Virus record (IMG/VR): IMGVR_UViG_3300032164_000087
Location: 1-21,057 of that record
Length of the DNA: 21,057 bases
Source: a virus
Strand: one strand, 5' to 3'
In this document: positions 363-15,724 of the stretch, one piece after another
How positions within the stretch are numbered: the first letter of the stretch is position 1
Layout: every line of letters starts with the position of its first letter
Translations under genes and position numbers: made by a program
Notes under the pieces: model-generated
What the model saw: only the letters and a program-made list of their open reading frames with translations
Database searches by the model: none
Told to the model about the DNA's origin: nothing

Positions 363-650
363 CTATATATGCCAACTATTTTTGCGACGTAAATGTTTTT
401 TCTTTCGCTTTGGAGGATTCAGTTTCTTCTCTTGTTGAGTTTTGCGTTTTAGGAGAATCCCTGCACAGGCTTGGTGAGCAATAAGGTCATATTCATTATG
501 ATTCAATTCATAGAGGAGTAAATGGACTTCTGAGTGCTGAGCGACTGTGAGATTACATATATTGTCTTTTGCATTGACACCTTTAAGGTTACCAAAACGT
601 TCTAACCATTCATGTTTAGGTATGCAGTGATGCCGTGGCAAATTATACAT
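363..650 (-). CDS. Small HNH-like protein
   Basis: A 95-residue protein. The N-terminal half has the spacing of short phage HNH-type proteins: the pair H7-H8 followed by IPKH, then Asn30 in a DNI context, then LTVAQHSEVH with H39 and H43. Such domains use a beta-beta-alpha metal fold to cut DNA. The C-terminal 30 residues are very basic (runs of Lys and Arg), suitable for nucleic acid binding. The ATG at 650 has only an AGGGG almost touching it; a TTG four codons in would have better spacing, so the start is uncertain. It lies 19 bases downstream of a perfect late promoter motif and alone after a 540-base non-coding stretch, a setting typical of homing-type insertions. Nuclease activity is inferred from the motif pattern only. 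Confidence 0.6.
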   Translation of the reverse strand: MYNLPRHHCIPKHEWLERFGNLKGVNAKDNICNLTVAQHSEVHLLLYELNHNEYDLIAHQACAGILLKRKTQQEKKLNPPKRKKKHLRRKNSWHI

Positions 651-668
651 CCCCTAGATTTTAGACAT

Positions 669-676
669 TATTTATA
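669..676 (-). promoter_or_regulatory. T4-type late promoter TATAAATA
   Basis: On the minus strand the bases read TATAAATA, the exact T4 late promoter core recognised by gp55 together with gp33 and the clamp gp45. It is intergenic, lies about 19 bases upstream of the HNH-like start codon, and is the only perfect copy I found in an intergenic position. The gene for the matching sigma factor, gp55, is in the same window at 16862-17407. The expected transcription start is about 5-7 bases downstream, close to 662. Confidence 0.65.
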
Positions 677-681
677 GAGGA

Positions 682-798
682 TCGTTTCCGAACGCGAACA
701 AAGTTCGCAAGTGACACTACAGGAAACTTAGGGAACTACAGGAAACTTAGGGAACTACAGGAAACTTACGCTCACGGGGTTCGCTCGTTCGGAAACGA
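682..798. repeat. Long imperfect inverted repeat (13-bp plus 5-bp arms)
   Basis: Bases 682-694 (tcgtttccgaacg) are the exact reverse complement of 786-798. The pairing continues inward with cgaac at 695-699 against gttcg at 779-783, with a two-base bulge at 784-785. The roughly 80-base interior holds a perfect small hairpin (gcgaac, 3-base loop, gttcgc; 694-708), which would compete with the inner stem, and a 19-bp tandem repeat. The foot of the structure is only 5 bases from the late promoter motif on its low-coordinate side. Confidence 0.75.
721..768. repeat. Tandem repeat of 19 bp, two full copies and a partial third
   Basis: The unit aggaaacttagggaactac occurs at 721-739 and 740-758 and again for its first ten bases at 759-768. 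A partial copy (actac) also precedes the first unit at 716-720. The repeats form the apex of the inverted repeat and show no open reading frame. They could be protein-binding iterons or a product of slippage. Confidence 0.9.
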
Positions 799-809
799 GT
801 TTCTTTTTC
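784..809 (+). terminator. Intrinsic terminator pointing against the genes
   Basis: On the plus strand CTCGTT (784-789), a four-base loop and AACGAG (794-799) form a 6-bp stem, followed at once by TTTCTTTTTC. This is a simple rho-independent terminator shape in plus orientation, although every gene here is on the minus strand. It would stop antisense transcription coming from lower coordinates. It shares bases with the right arm of the larger inverted repeat, so the two folds would compete. Confidence 0.4.
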
Positions 810-848
810 AGGAGCTTATAATCCGCTTGGTCTCAAATGGGCAAAACT

Positions 849-877
849 TTGCTATCAAAAAAGGATTGGCGTGTCAA
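849..877 (-). promoter_or_regulatory. Weak candidate sigma-70 promoter
   Basis: On the minus strand TTGACA (877-872), 17 bases, then TAGCAA (854-849), with TGA directly before the -10. The geometry matches the stronger promoters in this window, but the -10 hexamer agrees poorly with TATAAT. It lies in the non-coding stretch and would read towards the HNH-like gene. Confidence 0.3.
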
Positions 878-1167
878 CACCACTCTCTGCTATACAGACG
901 GGGCAGGTTAGCGGTCTCCCCGATTAAGAGTGTCCTTCTCATTCTCATGAGTAACGCAGTTTCATAAGTCGGTGTTTTCGATTTATGAACCTCACAGGTT
1001 TCCAGTTATGGAGAGCCTGCTCACTATTTCAGCATCATCAGGGATACTTGTTTGTCTACGCCTGAGATGCCTTCTTGTGGTGCATCATTCCTTTTTAGTG
1101 GAGGAGATTGTGTTGAGACACAGCACCTTTTTACTGACGATATAAGCGAACTCGTATTAGTGGGGAA

Positions 1168-1196
1168 ATTGTATCATAATATTTCAGAAAAGTCAA
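1168..1196 (-). promoter_or_regulatory. Extended -10 sigma-70 promoter after regA
   Basis: Minus strand: -35 TTGACT (1196-1191), 17-base spacer, -10 TACAAT (1173-1168) preceded by TGA. The regA stop codon TGA (1195-1193) is inside the -35 box. Transcription would start near 1161 and enter the non-coding stretch rather than a gene. Confidence 0.7.
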
Positions 1197-1597
1197 GTGT
1201 GTGGGGGTTGTTTCTTTCCAATCGTGTATTTTGGTACTAATGTCCAGGAGCCCTTTTCTTTGTGTGTGAGAATCTTGATCTGATGGAGAGGAGCAATATT
1301 GACCATTACAGAGGGATTCAAGATGGTCAGGAGTCCCCAATCAGCAAGAAGACGGGCAATGGTATTCGTTCTTGCAACATCATCATCTGATATGTCCGTG
1401 GGCTTCCCATCAAGAGCAAATAAATGTTTGAAGTGAAGTATGTAATATCGTTGTCGTTTATGGAGGATATGACAGGATTGGAACAACAAATTGTCCTTCC
1501 GTGAGGCAATTCCAATGCGGGAGAGTGTTTCACGGACCTTAAGGAAATCATCGGGGGTTTTGAGGGAGATTTCCACACAGGTAGATAAGTCGAGCAT
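1193..1597 (-). CDS. regA: RegA translational repressor
   Basis: A 134-residue protein closely matching T4 RegA (122 residues) along its whole length. Shared stretches include the N-terminal EISLKTPDDFLKVRETLSRIGIA pattern in two blocks (residues about 9-31), LLFQSCHIL (residues 38-46), YYILHFKHLF and the C-terminal WTLVPKYTIG. RegA binds the ribosome-binding regions of many early phage mRNAs, including those of genes 44, 45 and its own, and shuts off their translation. The ATG at 1597 follows a GAGG site 5 bases upstream. As in T4, the gene closes the 45-44-62-regA cluster. Unlike T4, gene 43 (DNA polymerase) does not follow; a promoter and a non-coding stretch do. Confidence 0.95.
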   Translation of the reverse strand: MLDLSTCVEISLKTPDDFLKVRETLSRIGIASRKDNLLFQSCHILHKRQRYYILHFKHLFALDGKPTDISDDDVARTNTIARLLADWGLLTILNPSVMVNIAPLHQIKILTHKEKGSWTLVPKYTIGKKQPPHT

Positions 1598-1627: not shown

Positions 1628-2020
1628 TTATTTATGCTTTCCTGTAAGTCCACCTTTGTCCAAGGCTTGTTTGATACACTTGATTTGATCCTCGGAGAGG
1701 ATTTTCAGTGCTGTGATGGCTTTTTTATCAGAGAAGTGATAAAACTCTTTTACCGTTTCAAGGTCATCATTTCCCACTGGCTTTGCCCATTTCTGGAACG
1801 CACGTCTACGGGAACGGACTGTGCAGAGTAAATAGTGAAATTGGAGTACCTTGTCCAGATGATGCCTTCTGTTCATCTCATTCGCTTGCATCACACAATC
1901 ATATTCATACGAGAGCGCCCGATTTATGACAAACGGCACATACTCCTTCTCTGCAAGAGAGTCCGTCATGATGTCGTTTTTTCCGAACTGAATTTCTTTA
2001 ACAAAATCGTAGGGTGTCAT
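1628..2020 (-). CDS. 62: Clamp-loader small subunit gp62
   Basis: A 130-residue protein starting MTPYDFVKEI. With gp44 it forms the loader that opens the gp45 ring and places it on primed DNA; gp62 itself has no ATPase site. The pattern EKEYVPFVINRALSY, then ANEMNRRHHLDK and QFHYLL and the later KWAKP (about residues 78-82) match gp62 of marine T4 relatives, which are shorter than T4 gp62 (187 residues). The start ATG overlaps the gp44 stop in the sequence ATGA, the same coupling used by T4 genes 44 and 62 to balance subunit numbers. Identification rests on the family pattern and on its place between 44 and regA. Confidence 0.9.
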   Translation of the reverse strand: MTPYDFVKEIQFGKNDIMTDSLAEKEYVPFVINRALSYEYDCVMQANEMNRRHHLDKVLQFHYLLCTVRSRRRAFQKWAKPVGNDDLETVKEFYHFSDKKAITALKILSEDQIKCIKQALDKGGLTGKHK

Positions 2021-2952
2021 AGAAAATCACAAGTAGCCATGAGTTCCACTAGCAGAGCAGTGAGGTTTATTTGGTGATCTGCAACAAATGCGCTCTTGTA
2101 CTGATAGTCTGCAATCAGAAGTACCGCCTGGGGTACTGATTCGGGTTTCAAGAAAGTTGTTAAGTTATCATAAAGCTTGCGGAAGAATGTCGAAGATTCG
2201 ATATCGTGTGTTCCGACCCATCTTCTGAGTGAACCAAAGTCCTTGTCCTTCAGATATTTGACAATCTCTGTGACATCTGCATCACTCAGTTGTGCAAGAA
2301 TCCCCACATCGATCTTCCCAAACGTCGAATAGCGTTGCAGTTCACCGATAGTGCGCCGAAAATCGGGGAAGAATTTCATAATGAATTCCACAAGAGAAGA
2401 CTTATCAAACTCCACAGATTCATGTTTCAGAATGTGTTGAATGCGTGCAAAGAATTCCGCGGCCATCTTTTGCTTTTCAGTACCCTTGAGCGTGAAGTCC
2501 ACAACTGCACATCTAGAGTGCAGGGGAGAAATAATTCGATCCTTGAAATTACACGTAAAAATGAACGAACAGTTTCCTGCAAATTCTTCCATTGCATTAC
2601 GAAGAGCAGGTTGTATGGAATTTGGATTGAGATAGTCCGCTTCATCGATGATAATGACTTTGCGGCCGTTTCCCTCCAAGGAAAGTGAGGAAGCATAGTG
2701 CTTAATCTTGTTCCTAAAAAGTTCGATACCATTTTCGTCAGACCCGTTTACAAGGAGATAGTCACAGCCGACCTCTTTGCACATGGCGATGGCAATGGTG
2801 GTTTTCCCAATTCCCGCACCTCCATGTAGGAGCAGGTTCGGAATCATTTTCTGCTTCACATACTCACTGAATGGATGCTTCAGTCGTTCTGGTAAAATAC
2901 ACTCCGCGACCGTAGAAGGACGATATTTTTCAGTCCACAAAACATGTTCCAT
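2017..2952 (-). CDS. 44: Clamp-loader ATPase gp44
   Basis: A 311-residue AAA+ ATPase of the replication factor C type. Visible motifs are the N-terminal WTEKYRPST, the Walker A loop GGAGIGKTT (residues 44-52), the Walker B IIDEADYL (about 101-108) and the SRC arginine-finger motif (146-148). Four copies plus one gp62 load the sliding clamp. Length is close to T4 gp44 (319). The ATG at 2952 has AAGGAG six bases upstream. It follows gp45 with a 24-base gap and overlaps gp62 by four bases, so the three replication accessory proteins are made from one message starting at the promoter at 3703. Confidence 0.97.
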   Translation of the reverse strand: MEHVLWTEKYRPSTVAECILPERLKHPFSEYVKQKMIPNLLLHGGAGIGKTTIAIAMCKEVGCDYLLVNGSDENGIELFRNKIKHYASSLSLEGNGRKVIIIDEADYLNPNSIQPALRNAMEEFAGNCSFIFTCNFKDRIISPLHSRCAVVDFTLKGTEKQKMAAEFFARIQHILKHESVEFDKSSLVEFIMKFFPDFRRTIGELQRYSTFGKIDVGILAQLSDADVTEIVKYLKDKDFGSLRRWVGTHDIESSTFFRKLYDNLTTFLKPESVPQAVLLIADYQYKSAFVADHQINLTALLVELMATCDFL

Positions 2953-2976: not shown

Positions 2977-3645
2977 TTATTTGGTACGTTTTTCTAAGGC
3001 AACCCAATACTGAAGCTTGCGAGACGTATTTGAAAAATGTGCGGCATTCTTGGAGGAGATTGTCACCGTATACGAACCCGGCATCATCACCCAGTTTGCA
3101 GTCTTAAATAGGAAATGAAAATCATCACCAGTATGAGGACAGATTTGAATGGTGTCTGTGTGGGCGGAATCGTCCTGTGCATCCATCGCTCGTAAACTAA
3201 TGAAACCATCAACCCCCTCTACTGTGATGTTCGGTGACCCTAGCACAGAAGCGGATCGCATAATCCAGTTATAATCAACCTCAGTTAATAGGAAGGTTGC
3301 GTCTGAGGTCAGCAGTTCAATATTTTTTTCTGGAGGAGTCTTGATGTTTGTCTCATTGCAGCAACGGTAGGTGATTTTACTTCGTCCGTCGAGACCTTCA
3401 ATAACAATGTCATTTCCACGGAGGGTCCACTCAGGACTCCCCTTCGATAGTGATAGGATGCCGAGAAGTTGATTGAGTTCATACACACAGAAGTCAGCGG
3501 GTATTGTTTCGTCAATGGTGGCTTCAGCTAGGACAGTTTTCCCTGTGCTGAGGCTTCTTAGAAGGTTGCCCTTCCTGAAAAATATACCAGTGTTAAATGT
3601 CGCGTAATTCTTAAGAATTTCAAGCGTATTCACAGAGAGTTTCAT
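2977..3645 (-). CDS. 45: Sliding clamp gp45
   Basis: A 222-residue clamp subunit that trimerises round DNA, tethers the polymerase and, in T4, also activates late transcription by contacting gp33 and gp55. It begins MKLSVNTLEI, matching MKLS of T4 gp45; GILSLSKG (about residues 62-69), the W-M-M-PG-YTV segment and the C-terminal YWVALE also fit. The frame is open four codons further up to a GTG at 3657, but GAGGT, 5-6 bases before the ATG at 3645, is a proper ribosome site and overlaps that GTG, so 3645 is chosen. It is first in the 45-44-62-regA unit behind its own promoter. Confidence 0.95.
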   Translation of the reverse strand: MKLSVNTLEILKNYATFNTGIFFRKGNLLRSLSTGKTVLAEATIDETIPADFCVYELNQLLGILSLSKGSPEWTLRGNDIVIEGLDGRSKITYRCCNETNIKTPPEKNIELLTSDATFLLTEVDYNWIMRSASVLGSPNITVEGVDGFISLRAMDAQDDSAHTDTIQICPHTGDDFHFLFKTANWVMMPGSYTVTISSKNAAHFSNTSRKLQYWVALEKRTK

Positions 3646-3674
3646 AAAATACCTCACAAGTTAATAATAAATTC

Positions 3675-14968: not shown

Positions 14969-15724
14969 TTATAGATTTTCATTTATTCGCTTCTCTGCAA
15001 TTTTGAAATACTCAGCATCAAGTTCAATGCCGATAAAATTGCGGTTTAGATTTTTACAAGCTACTCCTGTTGTTCCAGAACCCATGCAGTTATCAAGAAC
15101 TAAATCACCTTCATTGGTGTAGGTCTTGATAAGATATTCAAACAGGGCTACTGGTTTTTGGGTGGGGTGGAGTTTCTCTGCGTCTTCTTTTATATCCGTT
15201 AGTGTTTGTTTTGGGTACCCCGTAAATTCTTGTATGTATTCTTTTCCTTCTGTTCTTAAGCTACCTTTATTTTTACTATCATCTATACTCATTCTTAAAC
15301 TTTCACCCCCACGATTTTTACTATTTTTACACTTCTTGTCTATTCTAATTAAATCTTGTGGAAAGTAATTTGTTCGTTCTTTTGAGAAAACTAAAATATC
15401 TTCATAATTTCTAAGGGGTTGTTTTTTTGCATTTGCAAATCCTGTGATTCCATTTTTTACCCACACCCACTCATACTTAAACATCTTGATATTACTCATA
15501 ACCAAAGCACTGGTAAAAGGTTGGCTCGCTGTTAGGACTATCGCTCCGTTGTCTTTTATAATTCTTTTATATTGCTCCCACAACGGCTCAAAGGGGATTA
15601 TTGTATCCCATTTGCAAGCAGTAGTCCCATAGGGCAAATCACAAAGTATCATGTCAATACTCTTATCAGGAATATCTTTCGTCTTCTCCAAGCAATCTCC
15701 TTGTATTAGTTTAATGTTTGTCAT
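14969..15724 (-). CDS. Inserted DNA adenine/cytosine-N4 methyltransferase
   Basis: A 251-residue beta-class enzyme: the catalytic motif comes first (MILCDLPYGTTACKWD, a DLPY variant of DPPY at about residues 29-32), a target-recognition middle follows, and the S-adenosylmethionine site comes last (DLVLDNCMGSGTTGVAC, about 210-226). HPTQKPVALFEYLI is typical of the group. It methylates an amino group of A or C. The DNA is clearly richer in A and T than genes 46 and 47 around it, which points to recent transfer, yet its ATG overlaps the gp47 stop in ATGA. It probably protects the phage genome from restriction. Confidence 0.93.
   Translation of the reverse strand: MTNIKLIQGDCLEKTKDIPDKSIDMILCDLPYGTTACKWDTIIPFEPLWEQYKRIIKDNGAIVLTASQPFTSALVMSNIKMFKYEWVWVKNGITGFANAKKQPLRNYEDILVFSKERTNYFPQDLIRIDKKCKNSKNRGGESLRMSIDDSKNKGSLRTEGKEYIQEFTGYPKQTLTDIKEDAEKLHPTQKPVALFEYLIKTYTNEGDLVLDNCMGSGTTGVACKNLNRNFIGIELDAEYFKIAEKRINENL

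Follow-up and report, generated by a model that had tools for sequence, protein, structure and literature searches.

A gene-free island in the replication gene cluster of a T4-like phage fragment encodes a structured RNA of ~290 nt, whose ~190-nt core is tied together by two pseudoknots. Computational comparison shows that the fold is kept in four homologues, the window included (here the window is the whole 21,057-nt stretch of DNA that was analysed), and is matched in topology by a fifth. We consider it probable that the island yields a gene-strand noncoding RNA that is accessory to the phage, is separately promoted in the window, would be expressed early in infection and would act in trans.

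Results

Genomic setting of the island

The core replication genes of the fragment lie on the minus strand, and the features that frame the island are as follows.

2977-3657, minus strand: gene 45, core gene
2017-2952, minus strand: gene 44, core gene
1628-2020, minus strand: gene 62, core gene
1193-1597, minus strand: regA, translational repressor (Pfam PF01818, E 6.7e-40; PHROG 242)
838-1127, minus strand: structured RNA, from P1 to the conserved tail (homology to L011, L067 and L234; covariation)
363-650, minus strand: small HNH-like gene downstream of the RNA (PHROG 12434, HNH endonuclease; weak match, E 0.016)

A preliminary description of this DNA had reported a gene-free island after regA that ends at an HNH-like gene. 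Both statements stand: the 542 bases from regA to the HNH-like gene (651-1192) contain no minus-strand open reading frame of 40 aa or more wholly within them, and the gene at the border encodes a 95-aa protein whose homologues are adjacent to regA in most relatives, mostly at 69-75% identity. Second small HNH gene copies lie upstream of regA in two relatives (L225:752-943 and L232:2406-2609). Elsewhere in the window, a DNA-methylase-like gene (14969-15724, minus strand) sits between 46-like and 47-like genes, as judged by translation alone.

Gene 43, which had been expected in the island, is displaced rather than missing. In the sister contig L064 (the same contig as L002; 98% identical to the window), gene 43 starts at ~4450 and regA ends at 863, ~3.6 kb apart, and in other relatives gene 43 lies 2.3-3.8 kb beyond regA. 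In most relatives read, gene 43 has a sigma-70-like promoter of its own in front. Such promoters are found near the start codon in L064 (about 4450), L231 (3765), L233 (5789) and L234 (3148), and several of those in the clade leave room for a very short leader only, with no T4-type operator.

A conserved fold with two covarying pseudoknots

The 542-base minus strand folds better than 100 of 100 shuffled sequences (z −2.9), and positions 830-1145 alone give z −3.2; overall, single-sequence fold z scores are only −2 to −3. The spacers between regA and the HNH gene are mostly short and unrelated among relatives, with that of L011 being 81% identical to the window over 188 nt; L067 was found by a pattern scan of viral contigs. 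The preliminary description had proposed a structure search with covariance models, and this recovered further copies of the RNA. With just the window and L011 as input, the model matched L067 with 110 bits (E ~1e-26) and L234 with 39 bits (E 7e-8; 0.68 Mb of loci searched), and found nothing in RNA-minus relatives of the L004/L005/L010/L012 type with filters off.

In the alignment fitted by the covariance model, 95.5% of 133 cells pair and both-sided changes occur in 17 of 36 pairs, a level of covariation matched by 0 of 500 shuffles. A MAFFT alignment, which is blind to structure, gave 93.8% pairing and 12 double changes, compared with 35-42% pairing when the partners were slid. For the P1-P2 domain and the core, comparison of the window lineage with L011 gave 99% pairing and again 12 double changes. 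The differences between these two sequences are RNA-like because pairs in P1, P2 and P3 change on both sides. Covariation thus exceeds both shuffled and slid controls, as expected of a structured noncoding RNA, and constraint at the RNA level is well supported. The elements of the RNA, all on the minus strand, are listed below.

1079-1127: P1 domain, three-way junction GGUGC/GCACC with hairpins GUGU/ACAC and UCC/GGA
1032-1070: P2 hairpin, five adjacent compensatory pairs relative to L011
995-1019: P3, CAGG-CUCU-CCA-UAAC-UGG-AAA-CCUG, outer-stem covariation
959-990: P4 hairpin, 9 of 11 pairs covary in the covariance-model alignment
952-955: PK1 5′ strand GUUA, in the P4/P5 linker UGC-GUUA; its partner is UAAC of the P7 loop
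938-951: P5 hairpin with a GNRA loop; CUCAU/AUGAG becomes CUGUC/GACAG in L067
881-932: P6 (CACUCU/AGAGUG), enclosing P7 and P8; compensatory changes in P6, P7 and P8 (L067/L234)
876-880: PK2 3′ strand GUGUU, directly after P6; its partner is the P4 loop
838-854: conserved tail UAGCAAAGUUUUGCCCA, near-invariant in the window, L011 and L067

From 5′ to 3′ the order is therefore P1 three-way junction, P2, P3, P4, linker, P5, P6 around P7 and P8, and tail, and the shared core consists of hairpins P3-P8 tied by the two pseudoknots, both of which covary. P1 and P2 were detected in no carriers other than the window lineage and L011; in L011, P1 reads GGGGC/GCCCC (U-A to G-C) and P1a changes from U-A to C-G; the P1 domain was not found in L067, L234 or L242. 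The outer stem of P3 occurs as CAGG/CCUG, UGGG/CCCA (L011) and UAGG/CCUA around CCAUAACUGGAAACC, which is invariant in the window, L011 and L067 and has the tip CCA-UAAC-UGG; this UAAC hairpin is missing in L234.

PK1 pairs as GUUA/UAAC in the window, L011 and L067, as GCUG/UAGC in L234 (read by hand) and as GUCC/GGAC in L242; its 3′ strand (UAAC, 910-907) lies in the 14-nt loop (917-904) of P7, a GGGG/CCCC stem that shares the interior of P6 with P8 (CUG/CAG). The P4 loop AACAC (976-972) provides the 5′ strand of PK2, which is AACAC/GUGUU in the window and L011, AUCAAAC/GUUUGAU in L067 and L234, and CAAUCACA/UGUGAUUG in L242, with two covarying pairs in the MAFFT alignment. The GNRA loop of P5 is GAGA in the window, GCGA in L011 and GCAA in L067 and L234, and the tail of L234 reads UGGCAAGGUUAUGCCCA. 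The invariant loops of the RNA are the pseudoknot partners.

Several candidates were discarded: a long-range stem closing the 5′ and 3′ ends (AAAAAGG/CCUUUUU) had no support in L011 and L067, a contact between the P7 loop and the tail (GCUA/UAGC) showed no covariation in L234, a hammerhead-like CUGAUGA..GAAA string occurs in the window only, and a sequence-only profile (R1) was superseded by R2.

The spacer between regA and the HNH gene of L242 (2955-3215, plus strand) has no covariance-model match. It is very stable (folding z −4.9) and pseudoknotted, with the topology of the window RNA and without sequence match: an 8-bp PK2, PK1 after UGC, and P6 around P7 and P8 come in the order of the window, and a long hairpin with a U-run follows the structure. 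A descriptor requiring both pseudoknots, scanned over 2.9 Mb on both strands, recovered the window, L011, L067 and L242, with L242 scoring highest (32; best in shuffled sequence, 27) and with 92 hits in real and 43 in shuffled sequence. Since L242 had already come to attention when the descriptor was composed, we regard it as a probable member of the family, recognised by topology.

Predicted transcription and relation to the neighbouring genes

The promoter proposed to read from the regA border into the island is the following.

1168-1196, minus strand: sigma-70-like promoter TTGACT-17-TACAAT with extended TG, into the RNA (10 of 12 matches)

The preliminary description had called this promoter strong. 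The motif is present, and L011 carries TTGACA-17-TATAAT (12 of 12 matches) at the same place, ahead of an open reading frame and the RNA; by itself, the site in the window does not rise above chance, as shuffling yields 1.0 ± 1.0 such sites per region. We regard the promoters as credible because their position is repeated and the same promoter style precedes gene 43 of the relatives. The predicted transcript probably starts near 1160. No promoter was identified just ahead of the RNA in L067 and L234, so that their RNA would belong to the regA message.

A terminator facing against the genes had also been described, and a terminator-like hairpin facing the plus strand is indeed found at 783-800. 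Another terminator-like hairpin, with a U-run, lies at 867-882 on the minus strand; its 5′ arm overlaps the PK2 strand, so that the two would be mutually exclusive.

The RNA follows regA directly in the window, L067 and L242, and one gene intervenes in L011 and L234. Downstream, at a distance of 100-200 nt, the next gene encodes an HNH protein in the window, L011 and L242 and is a different gene in L067 and L234. The constant proximity to regA (5 of 5 carriers, directly after it in three, with the L067 RNA starting at the regA stop) would be explained if the RNA were no free molecule but part of the regA operon message, acting in cis as a structured leader or 3′ element that serves stability, processing or a transcription switch. 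The terminator-like hairpin over the PK2 strand would also suit such a switch. However, this overlap with a U-tract terminator is not seen in L067, regA and the RNA are set apart by intervening genes in L011 and L234, and a strong promoter of its own, placed after regA in the window and before the open reading frame and RNA in L011, would separate the RNA from regA. The variable and distant downstream gene likewise speaks against a cis element, which we hold to be fairly unlikely. With downstream genes that vary among carriers and start only after 100-200 nt, we consider action in trans likelier than control in cis, an argument drawn from what is lacking.

Distribution of the RNA and exchange at the regA/HNH site

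Rfam searches of four carriers at permissive E values gave no credible match, and a scan with all 4227 Rfam models found nothing that reached the gathering score in the window, L066, L233, L238, L239 or L234. blastn detected no homologue of the RNA in INPHARED (50,697 phage records) or among PLSDB plasmids, and two exact patterns had zero matches in ~85,000 bacterial and archaeal genomes, a weak test to which near-exact copies only are visible. Five pattern scans of viral contigs returned more than 200 stretches, of which only the window-type, L011, L067 and L234 sequences were real, as judged by reading or by the covariance model; the remainder look like coincidences. The carriers among the searched records are thus four sequence-level homologues, including the window, and one topological match, all metagenomic. 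They define a real structured RNA family of T4-like phages, previously uncatalogued as far as Rfam and the present searches reach.

The RNA is absent from most close relatives, and its carriers are scattered on the RegA tree, which requires at least three changes of state. L066, which has the RNA and an extra open reading frame, and L227, which has neither, are 99.4% identical over 2.36 kb downstream and 91% identical through regA upstream. They differ in the interval from regA to the next conserved gene (L066:541-2013, L227:2100-2960), a clean module swap. L234 and L235 are ~92% identical over 4.2 kb downstream and mostly 93-100% identical in the next genes; an additional homing-endonuclease-like gene follows regA in L234, and the RNA allele of L234 is only ~70% alike. 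That gene (L234:171-650; 159 aa, HNH type) overlaps the 3′ end of regA, directly precedes the RNA and is absent in L235. Because both pairs differ there despite closely similar flanks, we conclude that the stretch after regA is exchanged as a unit, as would be expected from co-conversion of flanks near homing endonucleases (PMC2988022). These sequence comparisons show that the RNA is swapped at a fixed, HNH-associated hotspot, and it looks like an accessory.

Relatives were also compared for joint presence of the island and the HNH gene, as the preliminary description had proposed. The RNA occurs without HNH in L067, and HNH occurs without the RNA in L004, L005, L010, L012, L233, L236 and L238. 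Since each occurs without the other, the RNA and the HNH gene are, by their distribution, not one element; the earlier reading as the scar of a homing element therefore holds for the site, an exchange hotspot with HNH genes, and fails for the RNA, which is found independently of them.

The same distribution bears on a further explanation, in which a mobile element would encode the RNA for catalysis or as a guide, as a self-processing RNA or nuclease scaffold moving with the HNH endonuclease. The pseudoknotted core, the GNRA and UAAC loops, the invariant linkers, the sharp borders of the swapped segments and the nearby HNH genes, including the longer homing-endonuclease-like version that adjoins the RNA in L234, would all fit. 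Besides the independent occurrence of RNA and HNH, the strand order is not group-I-like, no second copy of the RNA was found in the records searched, and no Rfam match was obtained, including to group I and II introns, HEARO and self-cleaving ribozymes. We consider this explanation improbable.

Repeats and small signals outside the conserved RNA

The remaining features of the island lie between the RNA and the HNH-like gene.

682-798, no strand: inverted repeat whose apex carries 19-bp tandem repeats; not part of the conserved RNA
669-676, minus strand: TATAAATA, T4-late-promoter-like, ahead of the HNH-like gene

The repeats and the palindrome of the preliminary description are all present: a 13-bp perfect inverted repeat (arms 682-694 and 786-798), 19-bp direct repeats (716-734, 735-753 and 754-772, the third at 84%) and a short palindrome (958-971 and 979-992). 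The inverted and tandem repeats nevertheless lose their standing as key features, being strain-variable and outside the conserved RNA: the sister contigs L002 and L003 (98.4-98.5% identical) lack one of the 19-bp copies, and neither repeat type of 682-798 was found in the other relatives read. The late promoter reported at the foot of the island corresponds to TATAAATA, which resembles that of T4; among the relatives read, no spacer showed one of this type.

Small hairpins precede the HNH gene in nearly every relative, many with tips of the GCGAAGC or CCGAAGG type, the letters differing each time (682-798 in the window and the corresponding site in L004, L005, L010, L011, L012, L238 and L242). 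The RNA-minus relatives L004, L005, L010, L012, L233 and L240 share a palindrome like AACATTA(TAATTCTC)TAATGTT soon after regA.

The preliminary description had offered a replication origin as one reading, in which a promoter and a folded transcript would supply a primer or R-loop. The strong promoter, the predicted structured transcript and an inverted repeat beside replication genes are in its favor. Against it, the element is absent from most close relatives, its fold-back and tandem repeats vary between strains, the pairing constraint includes RNA-type pseudoknots, and GC skew, uninformative in the 21-kb window, shows no clear turn; we judge an origin very improbable. A decayed gene or random functionless hairpins, suggested by the lack of an open reading frame and the single-sequence fold scores, can be dismissed, as 12-17 pairs carry compensatory changes, the covariance model recovered distant copies, the invariant loops are the pseudoknot partners, and a search among relatives for a normal coding gene here, with no conserved structure, found none.

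Discussion

Of the three readings in the preliminary description, the RNA fits best, its fold being kept by compensatory changes; the regulatory role also named there is one that we infer. Based on these data, we propose a plausible course of events. In the window, host RNA polymerase would transcribe the RNA early from its own sigma-70 promoter just after regA, and in L067 and L234 the RNA would be co-transcribed with regA. On folding of the transcript, the P4 and P7 loops would be tied back to linkers, giving a compact double-pseudoknot core. Controlling no one particular downstream gene, the RNA would act in trans by binding a protein or another RNA of the host or the phage, perhaps serving as a decoy or regulator early in infection, and would spread and be lost via recombination at the regA/HNH hotspot.

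According to a 2010 review of post-transcriptional control in T4, none of the phage's small trans-acting regulatory RNAs had a characterised function at the time, and the review voiced the hope that related genomes would point to candidates (PMC3014915); few candidate regulatory RNAs exist for T4-type phages (PMC3014915). The present family supplies a concrete one, pseudoknotted, with defined homologues, RNA-plus and RNA-minus phages with near-identical flanks, and compensatory pairs that can be tested. It also indicates that HNH-adjacent exchange hotspots in core replication clusters can hold RNA cargo that is invisible to gene-based annotation.

Between regA and gene 43, T4 has the gene 43 operator, a UAAC-loop hairpin bound by gp43 (PMC3014915). 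Its loop A-UAAC-U (AGCCUAAUAACUCGGGCU) resembles P3 here (CCA-UAAC-UGG), also after regA; in contrast, gene 43 of the present phages is 2.3-3.8 kb away, mostly under its own promoter, and the hairpin here belongs to a much larger RNA rather than standing ~40 bases before the gene 43 start and overlapping the ribosome site. No UAAC hairpin was seen before gene 43 in L234 or L235. The likeness involves six bases, is missing in L234 and could be chance, and we treat it as a lead only. A more daring version of our proposal is that these RNAs make up a new trans-acting class in T4-like phages, which passes between phages as a module of its own and sequesters a protein of replication or of the host. 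That protein might be the phage DNA polymerase gp43, and the operator-like A-UAAC-U hairpin that binds it would have stayed behind at the ancestral regA/43 junction when gene 43 moved away; we put this forward as a doubtful conjecture. The RegA operator is an A+U-rich, unstructured site near an AUG (PMC3014915), whereas the conserved parts of the RNA are highly structured.

Free-standing HNH and Mob homing endonucleases of T4-like phages occupy intergenic sites among core genes, with co-conversion of the flanks (PMC2988022), like the exchange observed here, but the RNA is no endonuclease gene and occurs independently of HNH. HEARO and the IscB omega-RNA are likewise structured RNAs near an HNH gene; the window RNA differs in having no Rfam match, and the 95-aa HNH-like protein is too small for the further nuclease domain of IscB. 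The Rfam models of group I and II introns, self-cleaving ribozymes, HEARO, tmRNA and RNase P gave no match at gathering score, nor did those of GOLLD, ROOL and OLE up to E 5 in the window, L067, L234 and L066 regions.

By its features the RNA belongs to a known kind, the structured noncoding RNAs of phages without known function. This kind also includes RNA C and RNA D of T4 (PMC3014915), which are small, lie in the tRNA cluster and were set against the window RNA by description only. GOLLD and ROOL are much larger (many GOLLD RNAs exceed 800 nt) and are usually near tRNAs, compared with ~290 nt and a position after regA here; like the window RNA, they are elaborate, pseudoknotted noncoding RNAs encoded by phages or prophages, with a conserved core and a variable flank (PMC12286853).
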